From Pythium myriotylum (lineage: Eukaryota; Oomycota; Peronosporomycetes; Pythiales; Pythiaceae), in the NCBI GenBank assembly GCA_023091665.1, contig JALJCQ010000015.1, positions 1,054,001 through 1,118,000 on the forward strand: a DNA stretch of 64,000 bases. Reading direction: 5' to 3'. Shown one piece after another: positions 651-24,600 of this stretch. The first letter of the stretch is position 1. Every line of letters starts with the position of its first letter. Below the pieces are notes generated by a model that was given only the letters and a program-made list of their open reading frames with translations, had not been told where the DNA came from and did no database searches. Position numbers and translations under genes: made by a program.

Positions 651-3600
651 ATGCGCCCGTCGTGGTCGACATGGCTCGCGCTGCTTGCCGCGGTGGCTCT
701 CGCTGCGCCCACAGCAGGCGGTGGCCCAGCAGCAGCGCTGGTCGGTGTGCCCTCGGCCCCTCTTAATGTACAGCTCTCTACGATCAGTCAGGACGCGCTT
801 CATCTCGAATGGGAGCCTCCCGCAGACGACGGAGGTGCCCCCGTATCGGCATATCTTGTCGAGTGGGACCCAAATCCGGGCGTGAGAGAGGTGCAGGTGG
901 TGACTACGAGTACAAACACGGGTGCGAACGAGATCCAAACCATCCAGACCTACGCCGGAGACGTCGACGAGGTGCAAGAGATCTCAACCAGCGCCACGCA
1001 AGTGCTGGAGGTGCAAACCATCACAACGACCGCAGCTCCAGGCGAGACCTTAGGCGGCGTCTTCACGCTCGAGTTCGACACGACTTCACAGGGTGGAAGC
1101 AAGCAGCTGTCCGGTGTGATCGGATATAACGCCCCTGCGTCAGGTGATCGGTCAGGAGTGTTTGAGATCCTTAATGCGATGAGCAACATCGGGCCAGGTG
1201 GCGTGCAGGCTGTGACAAGGACAGGGCCGGACGCCCAAGGTGGTTTTGTGTGGTCGATCACGTTCGCTGCCTCAATGGGTAATGCGCCAGCGTTTACGCT
1301 GAAATCCAGTTTTCTCACAGGGAGCGGCGCGAACGTAGTGCTCAATACGCCCACGAACGGAAATATAATCTCCGGAGGCACATTCACGCTGGCTTTTCGT
1401 GGATCAACAACTGCAGACATCCCTTGCGATGCGAGTGACGCGCAGATGCAGCTGGCTCTCGAAGCACTAGCTACGATTGACTCGGTGATGGTAACGCGAA
1501 CAGGTCCGGATTTTCAGCGCGGCTATAAGTGGCGCGTTACCTTCACATCAAGCTCTGCTTTAAACACCGGGAATGTTCCAATGATCGCTGTCGGCGCCAA
1601 TGTCAAACTTATCGGTCTGGGTGCTGTCGTGAGTGTTGCCGAGATCACAAGAGGCAACCAGCTGGGTGGTACGTTCCAGCTCAGTTACAACGGTGTATCG
1701 ACGGCGGACTTGCCTCTGAACTGTGACACTGCTACAATGAAGATTCAGCTCGAAACTCTGAACATCGGCACCGTTGATGTGTCAAGGACCACCCTTCCAG
1801 ATCCTCAGGGCGGTTATACGTGGACTGTGTCCTTCACCAGTCTCAAAGGTGCTTTAAACGCATTCCAGAGTGACCTTACCAAGCTAAGTGAGACACGGGC
1901 GGATGCAGTGGTTTCGAAAGGCCTTCGAGTTATGCGAACAAGACCAGGAACTAGTCAAGAAGTCCAGAACATTCAAGTGACAACAACCGCGGCTACGGTC
2001 TCGTCCACGACGTATTTCTCGTTAAGAGTCGGGTTCGCAGGACAAACTGGCACCACTGGCCTCATTCCAGCGAATCCTATGGGCGATGGTACATGCATGT
2101 CGACCAAGCCAGAGATTCAACGTATTGCTGTGACGACAGTCGACACCACGGCCCAGGGTGGAGACAATCTTGTATCGTCGAAGACTGCGATTCAATTGGT
2201 TTTCACCAGCAATACGCTTGCAAGTACTGTCGAGATGACCAAGCCGATTTTTGTCAACAGTGCTGGAGGCGACTGTTCTATTGGACTGGCAGCGATCAAA
2301 ACAGAACTCGAAGCCCTCGCTGGTATTGTAGGTACGGTGGCAATTTCAGCAGGAGCTGCAATTGCGACACAGGCATGCACATGGACTGTCACATTCGCGA
2401 ACGAACGCGGAAATTTGAACCAGATGAAAGTCGTTGCAGCCAACGTTGGTGGAGGTCTTCCCTCGAGTACTGTTATGATCGGAGACGACACGATAGCAAT
2501 TACAACTGTTCAAGACGGCTCGATCAACATTATGAAAGCGGAGCTTGAGAGGCTCCCCAATGTTGCGACGGTTACTGTGTCCGCCTCTCCAGCATTAACA
2601 CCCAACGCCAATCAGGCGTGCACGTGGAGCGTGACTTTCGACGGTAATGCGGGTAACCTGCCACTGATGCAAGTCTCAATTGACAACGGTGTAACATTCG
2701 GTGCTTCTGGAACGACTGGAGGCGGAGACACAGTCACAGTTGCTGCTAATAGGGACGGAACTTCATCCACACTCGGCGGTGTGTTCGCCCTTGAGTTTGA
2801 CGGTCAACGCACTGGATACATGCCTTATGACGTTAGTGCGAGCGTGTTTCAAACTCAGCTCGAGGTGCTGTCGACGATTGGAAGTGTCTCAGTGACGAGA
2901 TCAAGTGTAGATCCGAATGGCGGCTACTCGTGGACGGTCTTGTTTCTCACTAACCTCGGCGATCTGAGCTTATTACAGCCTGATGCGGCAGCTCTCACAG
3001 GAACCGCTCCATTCATTACTGTGCAAGAGACAATAAAGGGGATCACTCCGCCTTTCAACTCGAAGGATCCAGCCAACGGTGCGTTACACTTCATCAAAGG
3101 CGTCTACATATATTCTTCACCCTCTTGCGTAACATCACAGGACTGAGTTTTGATAGTATCGTCGTGACCGACCTCAGTGACCTTTCCCTCACCGCAAACC
3201 ACGTCGATGAAAACGTCCCGTTCTTCTTTCGAGTGACGGCTATCAATGCAGCCGGACTAGGTGACCCTGCGCTATCATCACCCCAGTCGGCTATCCCAAC
3301 GCCTCGTGAGTCTTTCGAGCTAGACCTCTTCATTTGTATGTCCCTAAACACTTCGTTGTAGAGATTCCGGGGCCAGCGACAAACGTTACGCTTTCCGTTG
3401 TGGATGGTACGACGGTGGCAGTTTCTCTCCGGTCTCCGTTGAGCGATGGGGGCCTTCCCATCGACGCTTACCAAGTGGAATGGGCTACTCAACCGCTTCG
3501 AGATGAAATCCAAGAAGTCGTGCTGAAGATTCCTGTTCGGAACGAAATCCAGACAATCTCGACAGCCACGAGCACTACCAGCGAAGTGCAACTCGTCCAG

Positions 3601-6600
3601 CTCACATCGACGTATTCGGGTACGGCGGTAAACGAGGTGCAGTACGTCAGTTGTGACGCACTCTCGACAAGCGGCTCGTTCACGTTGACATTCAATGGGG
3701 AGACAACTGCACCGATTGGTTCATTGGAGGCGTCAACTGCCAATATCAAGGCTGTTCTAGAAGAACTCACTTCAATTACGACGGTGAACGTTGCGTTCTA
3801 TGGAGGACGCACAACAGCTTGTGCACCGTGCAGTGCCACGTCAGGTTGCTCCGCAGGGTTCGCAATCACTTTTGTGAGCGTTGTCGGAATTCAGGGCGAC
3901 ATGCCGATGCTTAAAGCAAACACATACGCCCTTGAAGGGAATCGCCGTGTGGATATCACCGAGCAGACCAAGGGCCAAGCTGCTGTGAGTGGAACCTTTC
4001 GGTTAACGTATTCTCGAGGCCGAGACACCGATACCGTGCCTCTGCAATTCAGCGCGAGCCCAGCGGCGATACAAAGCGCTCTTTCGGCTCTGGATGCGTC
4101 AGTCACCTTCGCAGTAACGGATGACACGGCATCTTTGCCTGCCAGCGATGTCTCTGCAGGCTCGAAGCTGTGGCGCGTGACCTTTATTGGGAGCGGCTAT
4201 ATCCCAGATCTGTCGCTGAAGCCGGTCAACAATCTTCTCGTGGGTAATGGCGCTGGGATCAAGTTCTACACAAAAGGGGCGACCTATGGTACAGCACTAG
4301 CTTCGGTGGCTGGTAATTATGTACGCGGAAAGTTTCGGGTAAGCTTGGGGGGCCACACGACAGATTACATTGATACCGACAGTTCGGACACGACAGTCAA
4401 AAGCCAGCTTGAAGCTCTGCCAAACATTGGTACAGTCCAAGTCACTCGGTCCGGACCATCGTTGAAGAACGAATACGTATGGACAGTGACCTTCGTATCG
4501 AATCCAGGTCAGTTCCCAGTTGGGGCTGGATACCTGGATATGCTAGTTGTGACCGACACATCCCAGTTGCTCGGCACCAACAGCCAAGTCGTGATTATGA
4601 CTGTTCAGGACGGTTCAGCGCCAGTCGATGGGAAGTTCCAGCTCCAATTTAGCGACGGAGTGACTACTGCTGTGACTCGCCAGCTTTCGCCACATGAGCC
4701 AGCACAAGGCATAAAAGAAGCCCTTGAAGCCCTCCCGTCAGTCGGCGGAGTGAGTGTCACGAGACAGCAACAACCCGACGGATACTCGTGGAGAGTAACA
4801 TTCGACAAATGCCGCACTAATGTCCCGATCTGCAATTTTGGCGATGTCAACCCGATGACTGCAGACGTGTCAGCTCTGGTGGGTGGCTTTGGCACGACTC
4901 TGGCGTCTGTTATTGTGAACGAAATCGTGAAAGGAGTTGGTCCTCTTCAGTCGATGCTTGTGACTGATCTTTCTGGAGGTGAACCATATGAAACAGTGAT
5001 CAAGAATCTCGCTTACGGGACTCAATACTACTCTCGTGTGTATTTCCGTAACGCCAAGAGCTTTGGTCTACGCACTCTGTCAGTGCCTGAATTCGTCATG
5101 ACGAAGAATCTGCCTCCTGGATCTCCTCTCCCGGTTGTCTTGGTGTCCTCGAGTGCAATCAGCATAACGGTTTCGTGGGATATGCCAACTGTGAACGGTG
5201 GAGCTGTCGTGAGCGGGTACGAACTGTGGATCTCAGAGTGGGGTGACATATTCCGCAAAGTGTATGATCGACCAAACGACCCTGTTACAATGCAGGCGAC
5301 CTTGACGACGTCGGGTGATAACGTGATTGAATCAGGGAAGAAGTATAAGTTCAAGGTTCGAGCGATTAATTTCTGTCGCGCGGACGATACTACGGCTGCT
5401 TGCTATGGTTCATTCAGCGAACCTGTTGAGTACAACGTGCGTGCCCCGACCGTGCCTCAGCCTCCACCTGCGTTGGCAAGAGACTCAACTACGACAGTCA
5501 ACACACCTGCAGCGAATGACGGGATCATTGTAGTCAATTGGGTTGGGCCACTGGACAATGGTGGTTCTCCACTCACAGCGTATGAGCTTTACATGGACGA
5601 CAACAGTGGCGCTGGGTGGGTGAAGCAAACTCTTGTAGGTGCATTTCCTTACAGCTACACATTCTCTGCATTGAACTGCAAGGAAGGTACCGTGTACCGA
5701 TTCTATGTTCGTGCTGTGAACGCCATTGGTCCGTCCAGTCCGAGTCCCGTGCTCTCAGTAACGATGGCAAACGTGCCCTCAGCACCAGCTTCGCCGACGC
5801 TTGTCGATGTATCCTCGAGCACGATGACGTTGCGGTGGCTCCCCCCACAGGCGTGTACGTCAACGCTCACAGGCTGCAATGGTACACCTCTGCTCGGTTA
5901 CAAGCTGTGGCAGTTTTCAGGAGTCACATCCAGTTACACAGCCACAGGATCGCCAGTCAACCAAGAAATTCAGCGAATTGTTACAACTGTCGACACTCCC
6001 GTACCAGAAATTCAGACTGTGACAATCCTTGGGGCATCCGGACAGTTTTCCCTATACGTCAACTTCTTAATGACGCCTTTGCTGAACGCAGGCACAGCAG
6101 GAGCCGCGACTGCTGCGCAAGTGAAAGCGGCGATTGAGACGACTGGTGTTGGAACGGTTACGGTGACGGCCACGGCAGTCGGCACTGGAACAACGTGGGC
6201 GGTTACATTCAACGGGTTCAATGGTGCGTTGCCAGCGGCGATGGTGGTAGTTCCATCAAAGTTGACGAACACCGTGCTTGCCACGTCGTTTTCAACTTCT
6301 GTCACGCGTCCTCAGGTCGGCTCCACAGCACTTGGTGGCGATTTTACGATCTCTTTCCGTGGCGCTGAAACCTCGCGCTTGGCCGTAACATCGACCGCCG
6401 CCGAAATAAAGCGACAGCTAGAGAACCTTCCAACTATTGGGGTTGTTTCGGTCACAGCAACGGCAGGCTCAAACAACGCAATGACATGGGATGTGACATT
6501 CCTCACAGAACACGGAGACTTGCCGACAATGCAAGTGACTTCTGGGAGGCTTAGGGGGGGCAACTCGAAAATACAGGTCTCGACCGTCCAAGAAGGAACC

Positions 6601-9600
6601 CCCGGGTCGATTGTGTACGATGGCTCGGCTGCACCCGACGTGCTTCAGTTCACAGCTCAGAATCTCGTGCCAGACACTCTGTACGCGTTCAAGGTCGTCG
6701 CAGTCAACGCTGTTGGAGAAGGCATTGGCGGAACCTCTACCCCGGGTATTGCAGCTTCGTCTGGGGCAGCTGCAAAGAAGACGACGGCATCTGGGGAGTC
6801 GCTTCACCGCGGGATGGCTGGTATCGTTTATGAAGTACAGAGCGTCAAGACGATAAATCTCGGCTCTGGAACTTTCACGTTGTTTTGGAAAGGTGGCCCA
6901 GCCATTGGTCCTGTGTCTACGACTACGACAGCCGGTACGCTTGAGTCGATGATCCCCTCAGCCGATAGCAGTGTCGGGAGAGTTCATGTTTCCAAGCAAT
7001 CGGTCAACGGGCAGGACGTATTGTGGCGAATAACTTTTGTCGGTCAGATCGGAGACCAGCCACTGCTGGCTTCCAGCGACCCGGTTCATGTGCTCGTGGA
7101 AGAGTTCATCAAGGGAAACGCAAATCAGTTCATCATCGAGCCGCGAAAAGCTTCTGGTGATGTCGTGACGTATGCCACACTTCCACTGACGTTCCAGGGG
7201 CAAGACGTGTTTTGGACAGAGCTGTGGTCCAGTCCAGCATCAGTCGTGGATGGCACCCACGTTTTTGCTAGTGATGGCGGCGTCGCAACATATAATGCGC
7301 CTGTGTACGAGATTCAAATGCTGACTTTCGACGGCACGATAGGAACGTTCAATCTCAAACTTGACACGACCAACCGTCTTGGCGGAGTTATCGCTACAAG
7401 CTCAATAGCTGTCAATGCCGCGACGCTCTCTGCTGGAGCTACTTCTGATGCAGCCGCAAGCAACCTGCTCAAACTCAGCATAGAGTCACTCTCCAATGTG
7501 CAAACAGTTAGCGTATCACGCGTGATGAACGCAGCTGCAACACCAGTGTCTTGGACATACTACGTGACCTTCACGGGTAACTTATGCGACATACCGGCGT
7601 TGCAGTTGGTTGGCGATGCTGCCTTCTTGGCGTCATCGACCCTACTGACACCTCCTGTCAGTTTTACCGAGATACAAAAGGGCCAATGTGAGGTACAGAC
7701 AGTTGCGACCACTGCCAGCATTGAATCAACTCCAGAGATCCAGTCGATTAGCACGTGGCTTGATGACAGCGCGGCTCCAACTACCATTGGGGGGTCGTTC
7801 CAACTTCTTTTTGGAGGCTCAGCTTCAACGGTGACAGTTCCAGCCAGCGCAAACGCAGCCACAATGAAAGCTCTGCTCGAGTCACTGCCTACTATTGACT
7901 CAGTTTCTGTAAGTGTTGAGAATGCCAACTACGGCGCAGCGACAGGTCTCCAGACGTGGCTCGTCACTTTCAATGAAATTCTTGGAAGCGTGCCTGATAT
8001 CACAGTCGCTTCCACGGCAGCGTTGACGGGCAATAGTGCAAAGGTGATTATCAAGGAAGTGAACAAGATGGGTCTATCCCTGGCTGGGACCTTTGTGCTC
8101 AACTTCATGGGAGATACTACAGTGAACCTTCCGTTTGACATTGAAGCAGATGAAATGAAGACCCAACTGGAGAACCTAAGGTCGATCGTTGAAGTCGATG
8201 TACAGAAGGAGGAGCGGTTCAACGGAAATCGATGGACGATTTCGTTCACCAAAAATCTCGGGGATTTGCCCCTTTTGGAAGCTTATCCGTACGCTTACGA
8301 GATCCAGCAGATAGAGACAATTGGTGGCAGTCCGACACCTCTCGAAGGATCGTTCACTTTGTCTTTTTTAGGCGAAGAGACCGATGTGATCCCATTTGAT
8401 GCGACGGATGTGACGATGAAGGCGGCTCTGGAAGCACTACCATCGCTGGGAGGACGCGTGGACGTCACGCGAACGGACAAGTTAGACGCCGGCAATCGAT
8501 TCCAGTGGCGCGTTACCTTCCGCTCGAGGCTCGGTAACATTGGGAATCTTGTGTTGGCTAACGGACAAGGGCTGACCGGCTCTTCCGCCGGGGTCCAAGT
8601 CACAGAGATCCAAGCAGGGTCGACTCAGTCACTCACAGGCACATATCCGAAACTGGAGGTCTTTCAAAAAATGGCTGGATATCCAAGCTATACCGGCCGA
8701 TATATTCCGTCCACTGCAGGTTCATTTTACTCGGTTGCTGTACAGCAGTTGACTAGAGGTGGCCTGCGAGCGCTATACTACGATAACTTTTGGCTCCAGG
8801 ACGTGCCGGTGATCGACAAAGTGGATGCGTCAATGGTGTTTGATTGGGGGAACGGAACAATCACGTCCTTCGGTCGAGACTACATCAGTATTCGCTGGTT
8901 TGGTAAGCTTGCTGTGCCCCGCTCAGATACGTATGTGATGTATGTGCAGTCCAGCGAAGGACTTCGCGTCTGGTTCAATCACACACTTCAAGTTGATACG
9001 TGGGATGATGGTGAAGAATCTGGCGGAACGATGGCCAATTTTCACGTCGATTTGAATGCTGGAACCTACTATGATATCCGAATCGAGTACCATGAAGAGA
9101 CAGGCGATGCTTCTTTTGCGCTTCAATGGAGTTCTTCATATTTAGCGATGGAGCCTGTGTCGTCGACTGCGCTGTATTACAGTGATCACATTTTGGGTTC
9201 TCCTTTCGAGGTTGACGTGACTCCGGGGGCAACAGACTTTCCTTACACCATTGCATTTGGAGATGGTCTTACAAGCGCGACTGCTGGTCTTGCAGCCCAG
9301 TTTATCATCCAGGCAAAGGATCAACTCGGAAATAACAAGACTTTAGGGGGAGATATCTTCGATGTGAGGCTTGCTCACCAGAGTGGACTCGTGCTGACAC
9401 CATTCCAGGAACCGAAGTACCGGGGACAGGGGCAGTATGTTGTCCAGTATTTGCCTGCTATAAGCGGGCAATACTCGTTGTCAATTCTCACCTCTGACGG
9501 AATCGATATTTACTGTGGTCAAGGCCTTGCAAATAAATGCAGTCCGTTCACACTGCTAGTCTCTCCTGGCGCGACCACACCGCACACAAGTCAGGCTCTC

Positions 9601-12600
9601 GGTAACAGTGGGGCCTCGTACGGGAATTTGGATGCCCTGTTAGAAGCGGTAGCCGGCCAGGCATCGAACTTCACGATTCAACCGAGAGACACCTACGCGA
9701 ACCCACGGGGAACAGGCGGTTCTGATCTATTTGAGACGAAAATGGTTCTTGTGGCTGACCGCACTATCCAGTACCGTAGTAGCTCGCTTCGGTTTAATAC
9801 CGTCAAGGGCGTCTACGATGTTCAATACTCAATTCCAAAGGCAGGGACATACGAGATCCAATCATACTTGAGTGGGACGCCCATACTTATGTGTCCAGGA
9901 GGGAGTTCGTCCTGCTTGACTCTCAGCACGCCGTCAACCCTCAAGGTTGTCCATGGCCAGCTTCACACACCAAGCTCTACGGTCGACGACACAACGACTC
10001 AGGCACTTTCGCAAGCTATGAGTGGGCACGATACATGGTTCTCTGTGTACGCACGCGACAACTTTGGAAATCTACGGATAGGGGATACGACGACGAACTC
10101 AATTTCGAATGGTGACGGCAAATCAGACGCGTTCCTGGTTACGCTAAGTGGCAAGGACGAAACTATTATCACTTCCAGCGCCGTGCAGATCCTGCAAACC
10201 GCGGATCTTCAAAACACAGGTTTCTTCCAGCTCACATTCGGTGTCTTTCGACGAATAATGTGTCCTCAATGCGTGACGACGCTATCCGGAACGACACTGA
10301 CTGTGAATGTCAACTTGGTTGGGCTTCTCATCGTGGGAGACAAGTTCATGGTCCAGGAGTGTGTTTTTACAGCCGCATCTGTGTCCAGTACGACAATCGC
10401 GGTGGCAACAGGCCATGGTTGTGCGGGGTTCACAGCGAAAAAGTGGCCCCTGCAGAAAGCATTCGGTACAGCTAGATTCACGCCGCTGTTGCCACAAGAT
10501 ATCAGTGCTGCAGCATTAAAGTACGCCCTACAAGATCTTCACAGAGGTGCGCAAGTTCAAGTTTCGCGATCGTTCGTTGCTCCAGTTGGGCCAGGGCAAG
10601 GCGCCTACAAATGGCTCGTAACATTTCTATCCCATTTGGCGGAATGGAGTGTAGCTCATCTTGCTGTCCAGTACCCGACTACGTCTAGTCTGGCGTCCAC
10701 GCCGCTCACAGTAAGCTATGTGGCAAGTGGGGGTGTGTATCCGGTGCACTACAACCCTCATTATGCGGGGATTTACACCATGGCGATCACCTCTCCAGAC
10801 GGGTTGCAGCATGTTGTCGGAAGCCCATTCCTAGTGTCTGTCGCTGACGACTCAGTGACTAACGGTCCGAGCTCACTAGCGGCATTCGGTAATTCACTCG
10901 TCGAGAACTTCTCGCAGCCAGTCATTAGCCTCAATGCGGGAGATTTGCTCCAGTTTCCAGTGCAGTTAAAAGATACAAGACGCCTTGAGCAGCAAGCTAT
11001 CCGGGTACGAGCTGTAGCGCTGGCACAGGTGTTTGAAGTTCAACAAGTCACCGTGACGACTGCTCCGTTGGTTCTGAACTTCCGCGGAGCACCTGTTGGA
11101 GTGACGATTAACATCGGTGACGCATTCACTCTCGTGAAGTCGCAACTAGAGTCACTGCCAACGGTTGCAGACGGAGGGATCACTGTCACTCCGTCAACAT
11201 CCAATGCAGGCGATACTCAAGTCACCATGAGCCACTCATTTTTGGTCACGTTCGTGAAAGACACTGGCAATGTCCCTTCCTTGGCCGTTGTATCTGGTGC
11301 TGCAACGATCACAGAGGTCACGCGTGGTGTGATTGCCTCACGGAAGGAGGTGCAGACTCTCAAGTGCGCATCCTCAGCGACACCTGCAAATGATGGGTCC
11401 TTTTCAGTGACTTTTGCGGGCCAAACGGGATTAGTTGCTGCCGGAGCTGCTCTCACCGGCTCAGCCGCGAGTCTGGCAACGATTCTCACCAATTTGGTAG
11501 GATCTTCGGTCAGTGTTACAGTAGAAGGTGGGGTAGCTCAATCAACCGTCTGTTCAGCAACACCAGCTCGATTGATGTTACAGTTCGATACCGCTCTCGG
11601 GAATATCCCAGCCTTGAGCTACTCGGTCCCTGGTACTTCCATACTTGTGATCACGAGTGAGGATGATTCGGGTGGTGCGATTAGCGGCGTGTACCCTGCT
11701 TGGGGATTCTTCAAACTAGGTCTTGGAGCGAGCGGAGTTACCTCCGCTCTAACCATCGACTCGACCGCAGCCCAGATAAAGGCTGCACTAGAGGCCTTAC
11801 CATCTATTGATACCGTAGTTGTCACTCGCGACTGGATCGGCGTTGACCCTGCTAACTTGTTGACGACGCTCTCACAGTGGACTGTCACCTTCACAACTCA
11901 CTCTGGCAATTTCCCGAACCTACAAGCTGATAGTTCTGGCCTTGCGATGAGCCAAGATGGTCAACTGACACCATTTGTTGATGTAAACGAGTACGTGCGG
12001 GGTTCACTTGGTAACAATAGGTCAGTCACGTCTCCAAATGGCATTGGTGTATCTCTTGTCACTACTAGAGAAGATCCAGGAATTCAGGAAGTCCAGGAGC
12101 TGCGCTGTCGTGGCGACAAGGCTTTCACTCTTATGTTTGGTGGACAGCAAGTCGTCATCCAACCAGATGCCTCGATGAGCGAGCTGATGACCCAACTGAA
12201 CACCATCGTGGCCATACCTTCGGGCGTTCGCTTGTACACCAAGCGGGAACGCTTGGCAGCTGCAGTAGCTCCGTATCGACCAGTGTGTAGCATCGCGAGA
12301 CCTGAAGCGATTTTAATTGTGTTCGAGGACGTTTTGGATGTTCCCCTCATCTCCTGGTCTTCAACAACGAGCGACATATCCATTGTCGAGACTGTCAAGG
12401 GTGTGCCAAAGAAAGAAACTCCTATCTCCATCGCAAACCTTGAGATCCAGAAGCTCTCTTGTATCGTCTCCGCTACGAATGGGGCTGGAGCCTCGATTGA
12501 CTTGAGCTTTGGGTCGTCCACGATCACCGTTGCAGCCAACACAGTGATTGCTTCATTTGAAGCGCAGTTGAACAGTATTGCTGAAATTGCTGCACTGGGT

Positions 12601-15600
12601 GGAGTGAAAGCATCGAGTGCACAGACTCAGGTGTGTAAAGTCGATGATGGTACGGCAGCTGTGCCTGTGGTCATTACGTTCCAATCTGTCTGCGATCCTG
12701 CTCTGATCCAAATTACTCAGACGAGAGATGGAATTTTGAGTGCCAGCACCATGGAAGATACGAAAGGGCTGAGGTCGCTGACGTACGATGGATCGCAACA
12801 GGGGCTCTTCAACGTTGTTCTTTCACCGGAGGTCAAGGGGACGTACTCGTTGACGGTCCAGGTATCTGGGCAGCAAGCATTCTTTCCTCCAACAATTGTG
12901 GTACATCCTGCATATGCAGATGCACAGACGTCGTGGCATTCAGCGCCACCGGTGGTGACTCAAGGGGTCGAGGAAGTCTTCACTCTTCAGTTGGTTGATC
13001 GTTTCTACAATAGGCTCGAGTCCAGCACAGAGCTGCTGACAGCGGGGTTCGTTCCAGCGCTGCGCATCGGGACTGATACTTACCCGGTAAATGTGTCCGA
13101 GGCTCAGCCCAATACGGATGGGCAATTCCGGTTGCGCTTTAAAGCTGAGCGTGCTGGAGTGTACAATTTAACGATCGACCGACGCGAATCTGGCGGTTTG
13201 TGGGCGAGCTACTATCGAAATGTAGATTTTACCCAATTGTCAGCTCGGCGTCGCGACTCTTCTATCAGCTATCAGTGGCTCGAAGTTTCACCGCTTGGGG
13301 AACCGTTTCCGAACAAATACTACAGTGTGATTTGGGATGGTGACATTCGCGCGCCAATGAGTGGGAACTTTGTCTTCACGCTAAGTGGCGATGACGGCGT
13401 TGCAATGGAACTAAATGGATCCGAGATCATTAATACCTTATTGACAGCAACGACGAGAAGTCAGTCAACGACAGCCGCGACTTCTCCAACGGTAGTCTTA
13501 AGTGCTGGGGAGTTCTATTCGGTTCGTATTCGCTATCGTACCAAGGATGCTCAGTCGTTTGTGAGATTGGAGTGGAGCTGTCTCGGCTGGTTTGCGAAGA
13601 CGGTTGTCTCTAGCGACTCATTGTTCACGAGAACGCCGATGCAGAACACCCCGTTCATGATCACGGCGTACCCTGGGACCATAGACCCAACAAACACGCG
13701 CAATACTATAGATGGGTTCAACGCAACTGCTGGCACGTTAAGCACGATCACGACTAGTGCATTGGCGACGTTTTCGTTCGAACTTGAGTCCCATGATCGC
13801 TTTGACAACACACGGTTCCAAGACGGAAGTACGAGTTTCGATGTCCTCCTCACTGGTGTAGGCGGATGGGCTCTGCAGGGGCGCGTGAATGATGTCGTCA
13901 CTGGTGATCCTGTCACCATCAATCCTGGAGTGATTTGTCCATCGTGTGCCGTGAGTTTCACAGGTTCTACGAACACTCTAGTGGTCAGTTCCGATGTGCT
14001 TAAACATCTCATCGCAGGCACCAAATTCCGTGTGCTGAACGCAAACGCTGGAACGCTTGCCCGAAGACGCGATTGCTTCTTCATAAGCAAGGCCACTGCC
14101 GCTTTCTTGAGTGGGACAGCGAATCTTTTGGTAGAACCCAACAGCGGCTGTGAAGACTTCACTGGCTCCAGTTTTGCAATCTCATCAGTCTACCCTGAAG
14201 GATGGCGATACCTATGCACTTGTTCTGTCGTGCAAGGTTTGCCAAGTTTGGCGTCGTGTAGTTCAGACTTGCGCTTGCTACCAGCAGATGAACCACTAAA
14301 GCGTGGAGATTCGTTGGTAGTCGGCCGTGAGCTCCACCAAGTACATTCGACACGTGGTGTCTTTGATGACACTCAGGTCCCGCTTATGACCGGTTATCTC
14401 GGCCCCACCAGTGACTTTGTTCCCGTCTTTAAGGCCAGCAGTGTAACTGGACGTCACAAGGTTTCCTTTGTCCCATACGTGAAGGGAGACTACCAGCTCA
14501 CGGTAAAAGTTCCTCGGGTGGAAGGTGTTCAAGCAGCCACGACATCATCGGATTCGGCTCTGGGCGGGGTCTTCCGCCTCAAGTTGCGGCAATCTGGCGC
14601 GATAACGGCAAATATCGCTTTCAATGCGCCGCCTGCTACAGTCAAAGCTGCTCTTGAAGCGCTAGCACCAATCATTCCACTTGGAACTGTCAGCGTCACC
14701 CGCACATGTGTGAATAATGATCCAACCCAGGGTTGCCGTTGGCTAGTCACGTTCGGATTTGAGGTGCAAGATCCAACCCAAGTTACACTTGAACCCGTCT
14801 ATCAAGGATTGCTGACCGGAAACAACGCACTTGTAACGACGCAGACGATAGTTGTTGCTCGACCAGCACAAATGATTGCTGGGTTCCCGAAAACAGTAAG
14901 CGTTGTCCCTGGTGCGACCAACCCAAGTGTAACGACGGCTTACGGACGAGGTCTATACACTGCAACAGCCGGTGAAGTCGCGCAGTTCACGATTCAGGCA
15001 AAGGATACCCACGGAAACAACCAAGAGACAGATACAGATACTCTCGATGTCCAAATTTTCCCAGCTGGCGCACCGTTTACGAGCGGTCAGCTTATTCACG
15101 GCCAAGTCAACTATTGGGAGGACGGGAAATACAATGTCAGCTACGCGCCAGTCAAATCAGGTACTCACACCGTCGCGATCACTATCCAAACAATGCCTGA
15201 GATCCACCAGGTTTCAACGATATTTGGCCAGCTAAAAGATCGCGGCGGGACATTTCGTCTTCGCTTGCTCGGTAACACAACCGATCCATTGGCTTTCGAT
15301 GCAAACGCAACACAAGTCCAGCAAGCACTTTTGAATCTCCCAGTCTTTCAGAGCGCGGAAACCTTTCCAACGATATCAGTCTCACGAATTGAGAACCTTA
15401 TTAATTTCGGGTTCGACTACCTCATCACTTACGCTCGTCTACCGTCGAGTGTGGCTGGACATCTTGCCGTTGTGGGCGCTGTGAACAATCTTTATGGAGC
15501 TAATGGAAGAGCGTCCATTACCGCCCAGCTAGTTCAGCAGCAGAGGCGCCAACACATCAAGACATCCAGCAACCTCGGAACACCAGTCGTTAACGAGGTC

Positions 15601-18600
15601 CAGGTAGTCCGGGTCCAGACAAGTGGTGCTCCGGCGATCACTGGCGGGACCTTCCAACTCCGGTACAATGGTCAAGTGACTGTAGCGTTGGCAATCGGCT
15701 CGAGCGCTGCAACTGTCCAGGCTGCATTGGAAGCTCTCACATCAATTAGACCAGGCGGAGTTGTGGTGACGAAATCCGCCACTCTTGATGCATTCGGTAC
15801 TGTGGAGTGGATTGTGACCTTCCAGGCGGCGTCGACCGGGTCTGGTCAGATCGAGTTCTGGTCGTCTAATATGTACACGCGCGATCGATTCACTGTAAAC
15901 AGTGCGCTGGTAGGTAACCTCCCGGCAATAGAAGTTGCTTCGGCAGCTCTGGTTGGTGGGAACAATCCGCAAGTCCTCGTTTATGAAGGTGGTGCAACAT
16001 CACTCGGTGGCACAGCGTCAATCATTGGTATCTCCGCGTTCACTACGATCGTTGCGCACGGCTCAATTGCTCCAGAACAGTGCACAGCAATTGACAGTGC
16101 GACTTCATTCTGGCCCGGCAGTGTCAACATTGTCGGACTTGAAGGTCTCCACAAGGGTAAGTTCAACTCACGAACCAGTTTCATCATTGAGACGCGGGAC
16201 GTGCATGGCAACTTGTTGGACGGTACTGGCAACGGAGACATTGGTGCTCCACGCGCTGAGCAACAAATCGTTGAGACGTCGATTGCAGGGGGCGGGTTGA
16301 GCAGCTCGCTACTTGGCACTTTTGCACTTCATTTCGCGGATCAGAAGACTGCACAGCTTCCTTTCAACGCAGGTATAAAAGCGGTTGAAGCCGAGCTTGA
16401 GAAGCTCGTAGCTGTCGGCGCAGTCACAGTGAATACCAACGATGTGACCACTCTCGTTGCGCTTGGTACCGTGGTCGCGACGAAGACATCCCCTGTGCTC
16501 ACGACTGGGGCCGTGGATTTCACACCACAATTCGCTGTTGGCGATTGGATTCGAGTTGGGTCAACTACTGGTCCGGTTTTTACAGTTGTCGCGATCACCG
16601 CAACAGCCATCAGTCTCTCCTCACCATACTTCGGGGCCTCTAATGCTGCCACAAACGTATACAAACAGAACTCCGTTGGTCGAGGTTACACGTACGTGAT
16701 ACAGTTTGATTCAGATTTGGGTGATTTGCCGTCACTGTCGATCGACGCTAGCACTCTCTCCGTCAACGGTGTCGGCACAAAAAGCACGAAGGTCACTGCA
16801 TGCGATGGGAATCGCGTTCAGCAGATCCAGATGACGGCAATGTCTCAGATATCGGGAACGTTCTCAATTGAGTTTCGTGGAGAAGAGACTGCAATGCTGC
16901 CGTGGAACATTAATGCAGCGGATTTAAGCGACGCCTTGGAATCTCTTAGCGGCATATTCACAGCCACAGTGAGCAGCACTGGCCCAGGCTTAAATGGTGG
17001 TACAACGTGGGTAGTTACACTCACCTCCGTTGAGCAAGATGACCAGCAAGATATCGACTTGCTTTATGCTGAAGGATATCTTTTAGTGGGAATGAACGTC
17101 CGTCTTGCCGTCCAACCCGTCTGTCCAACCACAACAACGGCCAATGGGCAGCTTCAATCTCAGTCGGGCAAACTCGGTCACACGTTCGTACCTGTATTGT
17201 CCGGTCCGCAAACAGCTCAAGCAGATGTGGTGTATCTCTCGCAAGGCAAATACGTCGCGACGTACGATACACCCAGAGCAGACGCTTACACGCTTGAAGT
17301 ATTGCATGCCAAACCAAATGGTCTTGTGGGAGCTTACTTCAACAACCGATGGTTGTATGGAGTCCCCGACGTTGAACGAGTAGACGAGAAAATCGCGTTC
17401 GCGTGGCCAACGTTTGTCACGGCGACAAGCCCAGACTACGTGAGCGTCAGGTGGAGGGGATACATCAAACCGACATTCAGTGAAGATTACACGTTCTACG
17501 TTCGTGTTAACGATGGTGCTCGTATGTGGATTCAGGATCAACTGGTCATCGATGCATTCGAGAATGAAGTGGAAACGGATCAGCTTGTTGAGCTGCGCTC
17601 TCCGAACACGACAAAACTTGTGAAAGATCGACTGACTGAGATCATACTCGAGTATCGTGAAGTCACGGGATTTGCTGGTATCGAACTACTGTGGGAATCT
17701 GGAACCCAAGACAAAAGCATAATTCCTCGCGAACGCCTATACTATCGGTCGACACCAATCCAGTCCAGTCCGTTTGCTGTCCAGACCTTCGGTGTCAAGC
17801 CTACGCCTCCGCTTAACACAACGCTTGCGATCGCTGGGTGGAACGCTCTCACTGTGACTTTCAGTGCCCCCGCAGATGATGGAGGTTCGGCTGTTGACGC
17901 ATATTTAGTTGAATGGTGGACTTCTGGTGCTTATGGCAACCCAGAGACCCAGGTCGTCAAGCTGGACAAAGCCAATACCGGCGGCACCTTCACTTTGCAG
18001 CTCGATTTGGGTAGCACAACCGGGCCAATCGCGTACAACGCTCTCTATTCAGACGTTGAGGCTGCTCTTGAGGCATTGGACAATGCAGGTGACGTTTCCG
18101 TCTCATTTTTGGCGACGTCAACTGTTTCAGTATATACGATTACTTTCCTTACGCGCGTGCAGGCCGTCCCGGCGCTCGTGGTAGACACAAGTCAGCTCGT
18201 TGGCTCGGCAATAGCGGGAGTCTGTGCCAAGGGAAGTACAACGGCAACGGGAAATCCGGGGAGCGTAGTGACCTGCACTGCCGCTGAGAGTACGACAAGC
18301 ACGGTCAGCATTCTTGGTTCGTCGACTCAAGTCTCGCTCGACGTTGAGCTCGGAGATCCGTATCGATTCACCATACCTGCCCTTGTTCAGCCATCTTCAA
18401 CGACCGCCCCGACTCAACCAGGACAAGGTGGCGTGGACAGCCCAGGATTCACGGTTCGAGTTACGGCGCACACGTCTGCAGGATACGGTCGTCCCTGTAC
18501 GCCAGTCTCTTTGAAGCCGATGGCTGTCCCTGCAGCTCCAGAGAACGTCGCACTCACCTTGGTCGCCGGGTCACCAACCAGTCTTCGCGTGTCCTGGGAT

Positions 18601-21600
18601 GCACCTGCCACTGACAACAGTGCGATAATCACCAACTTTATTGTAGAGTGGAGCGTTTGGTTGTTGGATACGCAGCAGCCCGATGGCTCGTCGACGATGG
18701 ACTTTCGGGAATCTGCATCGTTCTTCTTGAATGCCTACCCGACTTCTCTCCGTTACAAGTATACCATCTCTGGACTTAACCCTGGTGTCGCATACGTCGT
18801 CAATGTCCGAGCAGAGAACATAATGGGTGTGGGACTGCCTGGTTTGACCGTACCCAGCTTCGAAGTGCCTCGAAGCAAGGCAACGCGGCTCACCGATGGA
18901 ATCAGCGGCGTCGCACTCAGTGTGATACCGGCAACACCTGGTGTTGTGGCTATAGCGGACTCGTCGTCTTCATTGCGTCTGTCGTGGCTCGCTTCACCCA
19001 ACAGCAACGGCGCAACCGTGACGAAGTATGCATTAGAGTGGTTTGATGCACCTGCGAGACCCGAAGTCCAGATAATCAAGATTGCTGGCCAAAATGCCGC
19101 TGACATAGTCTCTGGCACTTTCCAAGTTGGGTTTTCGTCAGCTGTAACAGACGATCTACCCATTGATGTCACGGAAGGGGACCTACAGCGCAGCCTTGAG
19201 GCTCTATCTACGCTTCGTAGTGTTCGAGTGAAGCGATCGGCTGCCCGCATCTTAGGTGGTTATGAGTGGACAGTGACGTTTCTCAGTGAGAGTCCAGCTA
19301 TCGCTGGCGGAAAAACTCTGCAAGTGAATAGTGCGAAGCTTGTGGCAACACAGGTGTCGGTAGACGTTGGGTTCAGACTGGATCCAACTCATGTTGGAGC
19401 AACCAGTAAGACACTGGTTGCTACAAACGGGGTCGCAACGATGACTTGCACTGGTATCGAGTCGTACGCTCAGGTAGGAATGTTCATCCAGATCAGCGGA
19501 TATGGTGCTTCGGCAGGCGTGTGGCAAGTTATCGCAGTTGCAACCAACACGATCACGTTGGACTCGAATTTTCCTGGCACAAGCGGGTCTTACCCTTCGA
19601 GCGTTGGCTGGACAGTTCCTGGCGCGCTCCCGTTAAATTACAAATCGTTCGTGTACGACCTAGCGATACAGCCGATTACAACGCCTCCGTTTGCGTATAC
19701 GATCACGAACTTGATTCCTGGCTCCCCGATTTACGCCCGTGTGAGTGTGTGCAGTTCTCTCGGTTGTAACGCCCCACGAGCCACAACGCCTCTTGTGTTG
19801 GCATCTCCAAAGCAAAAGCCGACTGAACCCCGCAATATTCAGATATTCTCAGAGACTGCGACGACTCTGCGCCTGTTCTGGAACCATCCTATGAGCGATG
19901 GTGGCGATGTGATCACGCATTACCGAGTCGAATGGGACACGACTGCGTCGTTCGATACGGGGGCATCAGGAGCGCCTCTGGGATACGACCTCAAAAGCGT
20001 GGGGAACCCAGGTGTAGACTGCGTATTTACGCCTTGCGAAGCGGTCATTGGGGCGCTCACTCGAGGGACACCGTACTACGTTCGTGTCTTCGCGTACAAC
20101 TCATTCGGTTATTCTCGCATACCAGGTATCGGTCTACCTTCATTTGGAGTTCCAGCAACACAACCAGCACCGCCCAATCCAATTCGAGTGGACCCTGTGG
20201 TCACAGCTTTCGGCCAACCAATGTTGCATGTTTCTTTTGACTTAAGACACGATAACGGTGGTGCTGCGGTGAGCCAGTACATGATTGAGTGGGATGCAAT
20301 GGACTTGGACGCGATTTACGAGCGAGCTATCGTCAGCTCTGCGAATGCGGCAGCGCTTGCCGATGAGATTCTTTACGCTCGCCACACGACTCAAATGCTC
20401 CTGCTGTCTGCGGACGCATACGACGTAAGAGGAAGCTTCCGCGTATCTTTCATGAGCCATGCGACAGTGTCACTCAGCTGGGACGTCGGAGCTGACGCAC
20501 TAGCAAGTGCTCTCGAGGCTCTCCCAACAGTCGGTAAAGTGCAAGTGCGGCGTTACATCACACCGAGCAACAACGGCTTCGCGTGGTTTGTACGGTTTCT
20601 CTCTCATCGTGCAAATTTGAATGGTGTCATCGGAACTCTCCCCCTTTTGCTCGTATCGATTGATCCGACGGATTTAGTGAGTGCGTTTGCTGCAGTGAAG
20701 AGCGCAACGGCCACGACAGCGCTGACCGGGACGAACGCGAAGATTGAGAGTGTGACTGTAATCAAGGGCTGGAATGGGTACGAGCAGCAGACTGTGACAG
20801 TGTCAGGTTCAGTGGGAACACTCGGAGGAACCTTCCAGCTCGGCTTTGGCGCGGCCAAAACGTCGCCATTACCTGGGAATGCTAGCGAGACTCAAGTTAG
20901 AAGTGAGCTGGAAAGACTGGGTGGAACTGGACGAATTCAAGTTTTTAAGTCAGCTCTGAGTGCAGTGTCGGGATTCCAGATTATCGTTGTTTTCACAACC
21001 AATCTCGGGCCAAATCAGCCCTTGCTATCGTGTGATGGGGCCGGTCTTACGAGCTCGATGCCCTCAGCCACCTACTCATGTACTGTGGCGCGGTCCAAGA
21101 CGGCAAACAGACCAGCGATGAAGAGTAAGTATTACCGTTCCATTGTCGTCCCGACAGCGTCCATCATTTCGCAAGACAATCCTCAAGTGGGGCAATTCAA
21201 CATCTCGGATGGGATTGTCGCAGGAATTGCTTACCATATTCGAGTGTCTGCCTGGAATGGTGTCGGAAGCGTTTTCGGCGAGACGATGTACTCCACCCCA
21301 GCACTCGTGGTCGCTCAAACACGTCCGGACCCACCACAAGATGTGAGCATTGACTCGGTCTCTTCGCAAGCTTTCCTCGCCACGTGGACGCCACCGATGA
21401 ACACCGGTGGCTCGCCGCTCACGAAGCTTCTGGTGCAGTTCGCCGCCAAAAAGGGGGTAGCAGAGAAGCAGAGTATTCGTGTGGTGAGTCAGCTGAGCCA
21501 ACTCGGAGGGTCATTTACTTTGGGAGTGTGGGGAACACTGGATATGACTCCGTCGATCGATTGGGACATCTCAGCCACAGCTCTCAGAGATATCATCTCG

Positions 21601-24600
21601 GCTCTTCCCAGTGTTGGAGCCTCAGTGGACTCGGTCACTCGTCGTAACGTTTTACTCGGGGGCTTTGGTTACGAATGGGTGGTCACGTTCAAGGCCGACC
21701 AAGGTGACATACCAGACCTGACGGTTGCTGACGGAGGTATTAACCTACAAGGAGCAGATTCCACAATCACTATTGAGGAACGAGTAAAAGGCGCGCTCGT
21801 CAGCTTCACGAACGCCCCGCTACCTGCTAACCAAACGGTGACTCTACAGCCAAAAAGTGAGGTTCAAGAAGTCTTCCTTTTCTCCAGCTCACGCGTCGAC
21901 CTGGGTGGAAGTGTGGTCCTAAACTTCTGCGGGGACATCACCCCTGCGCTCCCTGTAACGTCATCTGCGGACGCATTACGAGTGGCACTGGAAGGTCTCT
22001 CAACAATCCAAGAGGTCAAAGTGACAACAGAGGTTATAAAAGTACGATCGCCTGCGCGTGTACGTCAGCAGTTTGGCGTGAAATGGAGGATTACCTTCGA
22101 GACTGAGACTGTGGATCTGCCGCTACTTCTCGTCTCCACCGACAATGTTGTGTTCACGACCTCAGCGTGCGGAGGCACCCTCACCGGAACAGCACCTTGC
22201 GTGCGTGTACGAGAGCAACGTAAGGGCGGGTTGCCATCTCGCGCAGTTCTTAGCAGCGCATATTTGTCCAACTCTTCAAGTTATGAATTTCGATTCTTGA
22301 CTTCGAACGAACAGTTTGCTGCTTCAGATTTTACACGCTTGCCCACGTCTTTTGAACCGAAGCAACGTCCACCAACCTCCCCGCGGGATGTTGTTGCGAC
22401 ACCGCTGGGCGTGGACTCGATCGGCGTCTCGTGGCGAGCTCCTTCCTTCGACGGCGGGCTCAACGTAACCCAATACGAGGTCCAGTGGGATGTGAGCACT
22501 CAGTTCGATCAGCAGAGCATCCTCGCAGGGTCTGGATTTGTCGTTGTAGATAGCTTGTCGGTGTGGTCTTCTCAAGTTGTGGTTGCCAGCGACGAAGGCA
22601 ACACAACCAACGCATTCACTTTCATTGTGCGCGGCGTTGACACCACGCAGAAATTTTACGTGCGCGTGCTCGCGTACAACTCGCTTGGTTACGGAGAGCC
22701 GAGTGCATTGGCCATGCCCATCGACACGCACGAGCGAGTTGATCGATTTGTTGTCAAGGCAGCAGATATCACGGCTGCTCTTGCCACACCGCAAACTTTC
22801 AAGCTTTCGTTCAGTAATTATGCTGCAACGGAAACATCCTCCATTCCTGTAAATGCTGATGCTGCAACTCTTGAGGCGGCTCTGAACGCGCTTCCAATGG
22901 TTGGCGTCGTCTCGGTGACTCGTGATGACCACTCTAAAGGCGCCGCGGCATCACCGTTTGATGAATCGTCTGTCGACACGCCCTTCGAATTCCGCCTCGA
23001 GTGGACGATCACGTTCACAACTACATCACGTGAGCTAATCTTCCCTTTGACACTGGGAACGCTGCAAGTCGCGCTTGACACGGTGCCCGCTGGGCCGATC
23101 GCTGCAACTGACTTAACCATCTACGCAGTTCGTCCTGGGGTGGGGTATCCACTCCCAGCTTATCTCGTGGCTCAGCCAATGCCTTCAACAGGACCGATCG
23201 ATGTGAAGGTGTCTATTGTCGACAGCACGTCTTTGGGAGTAAGTTGGAGCGCGCCGTCACTGTACGCTGCTACCAAGTATCTTGTCGAGTGGTGCGATGC
23301 AGTTGATTTCGCAAAGGGAATCCCGCGCTACGGCGGGGCTTCGTATGCTAGTGCTGCTGGTTACTCACAAGTTGTAGCAGCGGCTGCGACAAACGTGTAC
23401 TCCATCCGCGGCCTGGCAACAGGCACGGCATACTATGTTCGTGTGTCTGCGTACAACGGGGATATCGCAGGCCAACCAGGCAAGAACCTGGGCTACAGTC
23501 CTCCAGTGCTTGCGTCAGTTCTCGACAGTGCGAATGCATACGCTCCGATTATAGCTACCGAAAGTATAACGCCGATAGCACAGCTTCCGTTCAAGCCGAC
23601 GACAGTTATGGTGCGTGTGAGTACTCGAGATATCGCGTCGCAGATCGAAGTGCTTTTTACTGAGCCAACAGTCAACGCTTTGGCATTCGTCGCTGGCAAC
23701 GGCGGCTCGGGAATCACGAACTACCGGGTGATGTGGGATACGAGTTCTGACTTCGTCGCCGCCCCGCAAAGCTTCGACGTGCCCATGGTATCTCAGACGG
23801 CCAATGCCCCACTCTCGTGCGCAGCATCAACTTGCGTGTTCCCACTCGGAGCCGGAATCGAGTCAATTGCTCGATCTCCTGATACGACAGCAGGTTCGTT
23901 CCGCGTCGCAGTGGCCTTGGACACCGAGTTTTCGAGTCAAATCTGTGCGTCCTGCACGCTCTCATTTGACCCCGCCGCAACCAGAGTGTGGATCGATTAT
24001 ACAGGTTCTACCCCAGACCTGAAGACTGTGCTTGGCACAGGTGCATTCTTCATGGTGAACCGTGACGGTCTAACGTCGTGTAGGTTCCAAGTCGTCGCCG
24101 CCACCGTTGCGGTACTGGGGAGTGCGGCACGATTAGCGATTGCGCCAGAGAAGAGTGGCGCCCGTTGCAGCCTTGCGGATGGCACATACTCGGTGCACAC
24201 GCGTCCACAGACACCTTGTTTGACCGCGACGACCCTGACAGCTGCAGCACTCGAGACAACCATTGAGACTCTGCTTGGGGATGATGTCTCAGTGTCGATC
24301 GATTCGACTTTCGGCGCAAAATTCCGAGTAACCTTCACCGGCACATCGTTTGCCTTCCCAGTGAGGAGTCCACAGCTACAAGTTGTTGCCTACGATGGGA
24401 CAGGAGGCTGCACTAGCGTTGCAGGCACGGTGTGGACTGCATCGGAGTTGGCCAGTGGTGCTGTTCAGCCGGGCGTGCCATACTACATTCAGGTCGCAGC
24501 AATCAACGGGGTGGGACTCGGTGCGTTTCGTTCCGCAAGCCCGAGCTGTCACGACTTACCCTGCGTCAACGGCGCCTCCTCGCTTGCACCGGCGTCTCCA

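Follow-up and report, generated by a model that had tools for sequence, protein, structure and literature searches.

The first half of a 64,000-nt window of the Pythium myriotylum genome (positions 1,054,001 to 1,118,000 of contig JALJCQ010000015.1; C15:1054001-1118000 in our own coordinates for the 58.7 Mb assembly) is largely taken up by a single plus-strand gene, read from open reading frames (ORFs) and splice sites as three exons encoding 10,451 amino acids (aa). The product is probably an extracellular protein with a backbone of immunoglobulin (Ig)-fold domains, in which FN3 and filamin-type domains are opened at fixed loops to hold guest domains. Fifteen of the 22 FN3 domains are split in this way, most of them by copies of a module with relatives in phage virions.

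FN3 halves, their spacing, and their predicted pairing

Separate profiles were built from the window protein for the first half of the FN3 domain (N-half; strands A, B, and C) and the second (C-half; about E, F, and G). Searches of the protein with these show that the two halves alternate along the chain, with 22 N-halves and 21 C-halves found by profile and the C-half of FN3-11 recognized by eye; a stray C-half match at residues 4410-4422 (expectation value, E, 0.28) was dropped. Seven of the 21 measured N-C gaps are 27–46 residues long and 14 are 109–753; FN3-11, with a gap of about 280, is the fifteenth split domain, leaving seven intact. Whether a domain is split or intact, the N-half profile stops where strand C ends in an xEWx-type motif; there is one cut point. 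In FN3-1 the N-half reaches SAYLVEWD (residue 73) and the C-half match, with FFFRVTAINAAGLG, begins 753 residues later, at residue 827; the gap holds seven repeat matches, one of them weak (E 0.0087). The general FN3 model of Pfam (PF00041) matches two parts of exon 3 at E 1.9e-19 and 1.6e-105, and in exon 1 (E 1.4e-6, residues 35-96) covers only profile positions 1-57 of 84.

An initial annotation, made from the letters alone, had described FN3-1 as broken after EWD by repeats, with its second half appearing only after them, and had proposed that the break recurs in well over half of about 22 FN3 domains while others are intact. The profile searches bear this out, and the three further examples it gave correspond to FN3-5, FN3-10, and FN3-21 (Table 1). 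Its residue numbers for the first unit, 33-865, agree with the gene as spliced at its two GT-AG introns.

The same spacing was measured in a control set made up of the window protein, as spliced, and 79 relatives. In 59 of these 80 an N-half and a C-half are adjacent at least once; the other 21 had no such pair and were left out. Among the 50 that carry repeats, 165 gaps are of 60 residues or fewer, one is of 61–90, and 241 exceed 90; in the nine FN3 proteins without repeats, all 104 gaps are of 60 residues or fewer. As these proteins are related, the counts are not independent, and no probability is attached to them.

An AlphaFold2 model was made for 817 residues (window 18898-21348) covering FN3-8 (split), FN3-9 (intact), and FN3-10 (split), with a mean predicted local distance difference test (pLDDT) score of 75.8. 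The solved single FN3 domain 2haz aligns with it over 104 of 104 residues at 2.2 Å, between model residues 418 and 809, with its ends in the two halves of FN3-10. By predicted secondary structure, strands A, B, and C of FN3-10 occupy model residues 429-467 and strands C', E, F, and G residues 747-798, which places the insert in the C-C' loop. Inside the insert, chain 9d93_Md, from a phage Bxb1 structure, aligns over model residues 491-738. The model supports a single FN3 domain formed by the two halves of FN3-10, with the insert folding as separate domains; independent or unpaired halves, the contrary outcome, were not obtained in it. The titin FN3 tandem 3lpw_A is among the best fold matches (196 of 197 residues, model 303-808), and three-FN3 chains align from about model residue 2 to 810, spanning split FN3-8 and suggesting that its halves pair as well. 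For one run of three units, the prediction is of halves that pair and guests that fold separately.

Guest modules and apparent filamin-type hosts

The main guest is a module of ~93 residues, here called the repeat, and the second a VGD module of ~72 residues. The repeat profile matches the window protein 44 times (42 of these at E ≤ 1e-3), two of the matches being the halves of one repeat: 27 lie in FN3 C-C' gaps, 16 in the filamin region, and one (residues 7342-7445, window 22792-23103) after FN3-12, possibly in the F-G region of that domain. As read from the sequence, two VGD modules lie within guest repeats, making the nesting three deep. Ahead of the first repeat, four short units beginning with EVQ or EIQ start at residues 80, 94, 107, and 120 (window 888-1043); a similar series is visible in the related proteins P0006, P0009, P0010, P0031, P0034, and P0035.

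A profile of 13 repeats, searched against PDB, matched the tail tip cage protein gp23 and the major capsid protein of phage Bxb1 (9d93, 9d9w; E 2.7e-28 and 0.0011), with the 9d93_Ma match (E 2.7e-28) in three stretches; a single repeat gave no match as a PDB query. The predicted fold of the repeat matches the Bxb1 module over 88 residues at 1.9 Å, and PHROG tail sheath and major tail families also match the repeat (best E 1.6e-10). The window protein thus shares the module with gp23 and the capsid protein, but in Bxb1 it is part of virion proteins, and here it is set inside FN3 domains. Besides these actinophage capsids and tails, bacteria carry relatives of the module: none was found in a first bacterial scan, 22 loci were found in a second, and 24 module-bearing bacterial reading frames contain no FN3 halves (E ≤ 0.001; profiles from the window protein). 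In a metagenome protein of 6,322 aa (P0025), the repeat is matched 48 times and FN3 halves are absent. Ig-like domains on the surface of the capsid and tail of phage Douge bind host glycans, according to the available part of PMC13033339.

Because the VGD profile also matches P0023, which has no repeats, twice at E ≤ 0.05, weak VGD matches are regarded as noise; the label SH3-like for this module was dropped, there being no fold evidence for it. The POTRA model PF08478, also listed for some relatives, scores 25.8 bits for the whole protein against a cut-off of 23, with no stretch passing singly; its best stretch (positions 36-58 of 69) lies within a repeat.

The initial annotation was right to nest the repeats in FN3 domains, but too narrow in limiting them to these: filamin-type domains, and even repeats, seem to be opened too. 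The filamin repeat PF00630 matches at E 9.2e-36 in four stretches, and nine filamin-type C-halves (E ≤ 0.01) lie between FN3-5 and FN3-6. Seven of the nine domains appear opened: repeats or VGD modules seem to interrupt them near strand C, with a position clearly after that strand in domains 4 and 7, and the F-G region seems to hold repeats or, in the case of all three PA14 domains, PA14. As read from the sequence, each PA14 has the C-half before it and a G strand of SPFxV type after it (one motif by eye). Both profile and fold identify these as PA14, with fold matches of the predicted model including the sugar-binding PA14 of Marinomonas and yeast flocculins. In its Pfam matches, which are above cut-off, the protein is like filamin and PA14 proteins; unlike them as usually found, it appears to have PA14 between the last two strands of a filamin-type domain and not beside it. 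Three filamin-profile matches were dropped: two to the N-half, at residues 2114-2127 (E 0.54) and 9121-9151 (E 1.0), and one to the C-half, at 2712-2732 (E 0.07). Elsewhere in the same genome (C12 960001-968000), a 1,683-aa frame has filamin-type domains and three PA14 matches, with the order C-half, PA14, ILGSPF segment at least once, PA14 apparently being inside the filamin-type domain.

Table 1. Positions (in the window) of the exons, introns, and domains of the split-FN3 gene
Feature	Position	Strand	Comment
Exon 1	651..3078	+	putative leader, FN3-1 N-half, most of FN3-1 insert
FN3-1, split	747..3283	+	gap 753, 7 repeat matches
Intron 1, GT-AG	3079..3140	+	sequence reading; frame kept on splicing
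Exon 2	3141..3305	+	FN3-1 C-half
Intron 2, GT-AG	3306..3361	+	sequence reading
Exon 3	3362..32124	+	FN3-2 to FN3-22; without internal stop
FN3-2, split	3364..5088	+	gap 503, 4 repeats
FN3-3, intact	5113..5370	+	weak C-half
FN3-4, intact	5467..5748	+	profile halves
FN3-5, split	5773..6744	+	gap 250, 2 repeats
Filamin-type 1	6754..9228	+	repeats before C-half, PA14 after it; N-half E 0.07; G strand by eye
PA14-1	8761..9138	+	Pfam PF07691
Filamin-type 2 + 3, unopened	9217..9954	+	profile halves
Filamin-type 4	9961..10848	+	apparent VGD module + repeat after strand C
Filamin-type 5	10879..12909	+	four repeat matches (one weak); N-half by eye
Filamin-type 6	12895..13677	+	PA14 apparently between strands F and G
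PA14-2	13195..13587	+	Pfam PF07691
Filamin-type 7	13720..14910	+	N-half E 0.12; apparent VGD module after strand C, repeat in F-G
Filamin-type 8	14902..16059	+	two repeats apparently in F-G region; G strand by eye
Filamin-type 9	16048..17796	+	VGD-holding repeat, second repeat before or after strand C, PA14, then G strand
VGD module inside guest repeat	16444..16659	+	residues 5226-5297; repeat positions 1-49 before, 47-91 after
PA14-3	17317..17727	+	
FN3-6, split	17797..18507	+	gap 175, 1 repeat
FN3-7, intact	18526..18855	+	profile halves
FN3-8, split	18928..19791	+	gap 218, 1 repeat + further stretch; modeled
FN3-9, intact	19816..20139	+	profile halves; modeled
FN3-10, split	20161..21273	+	gap 304, 2 repeats; modeled
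FN3-10 insert	20299..21135	+	model residues 468-746, between predicted strands C and C'
FN3-11, split	21322..22338	+	2 repeats; C-half by eye, end approximate
FN3-12, intact	22369..22710	+	one repeat next after it
FN3-13, intact	23188..23478	+	profile halves
FN3-14, split	23584..24543	+	gap 239, 1 repeat + VGD module
FN3-15, split	24598..25149	+	gap 111, VGD module sole guest found
FN3-16, split	25303..25788	+	gap 109, VGD module sole guest found; weak N-half
FN3-17, split	25831..26607	+	gap 170, 1 repeat
FN3-18, intact	26659..26952	+	profile halves
FN3-19, split	26974..27909	+	gap 237; repeat with VGD module inside
VGD module inside FN3-19 repeat	27238..27426	+	residues 8824-8886; repeat start by eye, profile resumes position 15
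FN3-20, split	27964..29871	+	gap 569, 2 repeats + other material
FN3-21, split	29896..30963	+	gap 284, 2 repeats
FN3-22, split	30994..32109	+	gap 305, 1 repeat + VGD module

Downstream (window 32194-61948), Pfam identifies a SHIPPO-repeat protein, an aspartyl protease, a calcineurin-like phosphoesterase, a ZZ-finger protein, a Glu/Gln-tRNA synthetase, and a COPA/B-type coatomer subunit; four other long frames there have no Pfam match. No tRNA or Rfam family was found within the 64-kb window.

Relatives, age, and alternative readings

The nearest named relatives of a 1,600-residue query region are in Pythium insidiosum (55% identity) and Globisporangium splendens (52%), and close relatives are found among oomycetes as well as in the algal genera Triparma and Aureococcus. 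Profile searches show the split to be conserved across species: gap lengths at matching positions are near-parallel in Pythium, Phytophthora, and Saprolegnia proteins (the last being SPRG_04153, P0007), and Triparma, Aureococcus, and an Alexandrium transcript have similar splits of other lengths. A paralog in the same genome (C4; a 7,412-residue frame) has 13 measurable FN3 domains with seven gaps of more than 90 residues and, unless a half was missed, one gap that extends over 2,189 residues and contains 15 repeat matches. Two further frames, of 7,504 and 3,766 aa (C11 20001-50000 and C33 228001-248000), have 14 and six repeat matches, and FN3 halves were not found in them at E ≤ 0.01.

Five proteins supplied the 72 FN3 domains for a tree calculated from 72 columns; four of its 69 inner branches are starred and its deep branches are unresolved. 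All 17 of the smallest supported groups (two or three rows, mostly matching positions across species) carry a single label, split or intact, and the four wider supported groups (five to eight rows) mix the two. Split or intact status thus looks to be held position by position between species, and the design to be old and constant, which argues against a currently evolving system. The description of the architecture as evolvable in the initial annotation finds no support in these single-label groups, or in gap lengths that are near-constant from Pythium to Saprolegnia.

It is only a little short of an even chance that there was one founding insertion, the split unit then being multiplied by duplication with the loss of some inserts, a history compatible with an Ig-fold backbone opened at fixed loops. 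The tree requires 17 label changes, against a mean of 22.4 for shuffled labels, with as few in nine of 500 shuffles (split) and three of 500 (intact), and the starred branches force one change only. However, this tree is nearly unresolved, its wider groups are of mixed label, and the guests in filamin loops and within repeats suggest repeated insertion in other hosts.

Several points weigh against the nested Ig-fold reading itself. The model was built on an alignment of seven sequences (the query and six homologs), and its predicted template modeling score (pTM) of 0.41 means that relative domain placement, side-arm geometry, and guest direction are not predicted by it. It includes two of the 15 split FN3 domains, with only FN3-10 tested singly, and that 2haz skips the insert is judged from length and fit, the alignment listing giving end points only. 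The filamin-type splits are sequence readings: N-halves were found at E ≤ 0.01 for six of the nine domains, two are weak, and one was placed by eye. A filamin-PA14 model has a mean pLDDT of 63.9, with the N-half under 50, and no filamin is among the 50 fold matches listed for it, a list filled by PA14. The repeat after FN3-12 is outside the C-C' rule, and of the wider set's 1,042 repeat matches, 673 fall in C-C' gaps; a further 168 are between domains and 201 in other places, partly through missed FN3 halves.

The halves might instead not pair at all, but be degenerate domains in their own right, or linkers, on either side of repeat arrays. The low global pTM would allow this, as would the weak C-half of FN3-3 (E 0.26), the weak N-half of FN3-16 (E 0.065), and the C-half of FN3-11 missed by profile. 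It was nonetheless rejected as very improbable: 2haz, a complete FN3 domain, matches with its ends on either side of the FN3-10 insert, the halves alternate, and the same split is found in relatives and in the C4 paralog.

Less probable again is that splicing removes the inserts, as long introns in frame or as optional exons, leaving ordinary FN3 domains in the mature protein. The gene does have introns, and one module missing from the filamin 9 region in the P. infestans protein P0006, where its flanks align, could be a predicted intron; but one frame is open over 28.8 kb, inserts included, and the inserts consist of conserved protein domains whose predicted folds match solved structures and which appear in the protein models of many species.

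The N-terminus, MRPSWSTWLALLAAVALAAPTAGG, resembles a signal peptide by eye, as do similar hydrophobic leaders in the orthologs P0006, P0009, P0010, P0031, and P0034. The C-terminal residue is identical in position to the end of the Pythium protein P0002, making a downstream exon with an anchor unlikely. PA14 and GLEYA are domains known from extracellular proteins, and in Pfam scans exon 3 has GLEYA matches besides PA14; no Ig I-set, kinase, or N-terminal actin-binding CH domain was found in exons 1-3. A search of three pieces against NCBIfam gave one weak TamB match, far under cut-off. An intracellular elastic protein like titin or twitchin, although suggested by database names for relatives (Titin, Projectin/twitchin, Twitchin) and by titin FN3 tandems among the best fold matches, is accordingly as improbable as the intron explanation and was rejected on this Pfam content and the leader.

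Proposed architecture and its meaning

The gene product would be a secreted protein of roughly one megadalton, its backbone formed by about 31 Ig-fold domains in series (22 FN3 and nine filamin-type). In 15 of the FN3 domains the chain would exit after strand C, run through guests, mostly copies of the phage-type module and sometimes a VGD module, and return for strands C', E, F, and G. If the halves close into one FN3 domain, the backbone should continue uninterrupted, with guests pointing out to the side from a single site in each domain; side arms on an extended backbone are a reasonable expectation on geometric grounds. Most filamin-type domains would be opened likewise, near strand C and between F and G, with PA14 heads in the F-G region.

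There is a precedent for an opened FN3 domain. The insert domain of the insulin receptor is located in the C-C' loop of FnIII-2. The available parts of PMC10560217 and PMC2577065 describe portions of this FN3 on both sides of the insert, which holds a cleavage site and is presumably disordered in the crystal (PMC2577065). The window protein shares with insulin receptor and IGF1R FnIII-2 the interruption of an FN3 domain by an insert, but there it is one domain of one receptor, and here module arrays with predicted folds split 15 of 22, and the opening seems to extend to other Ig-fold hosts. It is not a member of that family: L domains, a cysteine-rich region, and a tyrosine kinase were not detected by Pfam in exon 3 (E ≤ 1) or exons 1 and 2. 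The novelty claimed in the initial annotation therefore needs qualifying: the opened FN3 is known in principle, and what was not found described, among the papers listed by one open-licence literature library, is a protein with more than half of its FN3 domains and a second Ig-fold family so split, and with phage-type guests.

A surface, cyst-coat, or matrix adhesin with putatively sugar-binding PA14 is the likeliest role, at somewhat less than even odds, and is held much more tentatively than the structural reading. In the available part of PMC5771568, giant putative secreted FN3 proteins of Saprolegnia parasitica (5,297 to 9,440 aa) show stronger expression in cysts than in mycelium and are named as potential components of attachment bundles; three of them, SPRG_05384, SPRG_19863, and SPRG_03974, are like the window protein in being very large and putatively secreted. 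It counts against this role that the cyst data concern other giant FN3 proteins, SPRG_04153 being absent from the table of these (PMC5771568, same part). Nested architecture is not discussed in the text of that paper examined.

A broader rule is somewhat favored: that several Ig-fold families serve as sockets, with fixed loops for guests that can themselves be sockets, giving a covalent branched brush of up to three nesting levels. Such a design would predate the split of oomycetes and ochrophytes, and perhaps be earlier still if the dinoflagellate copies are vertical, with a main guest shared with phages.

Annotation of giant proteins assumes beads on a string, and here many domains appear to be threaded through one another; ordinary profile scans would then give wrong domain counts, lengths, and construct boundaries for a class of stramenopile proteins. 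The C-C' loop would be a natural fixed acceptor site in FN3, a popular engineering scaffold, and one that seems to tolerate very large folded cargo. For oomycetes, the protein is a concrete candidate component of cyst and surface biology, and its architecture looks to be an old, conserved way to build a giant protein.
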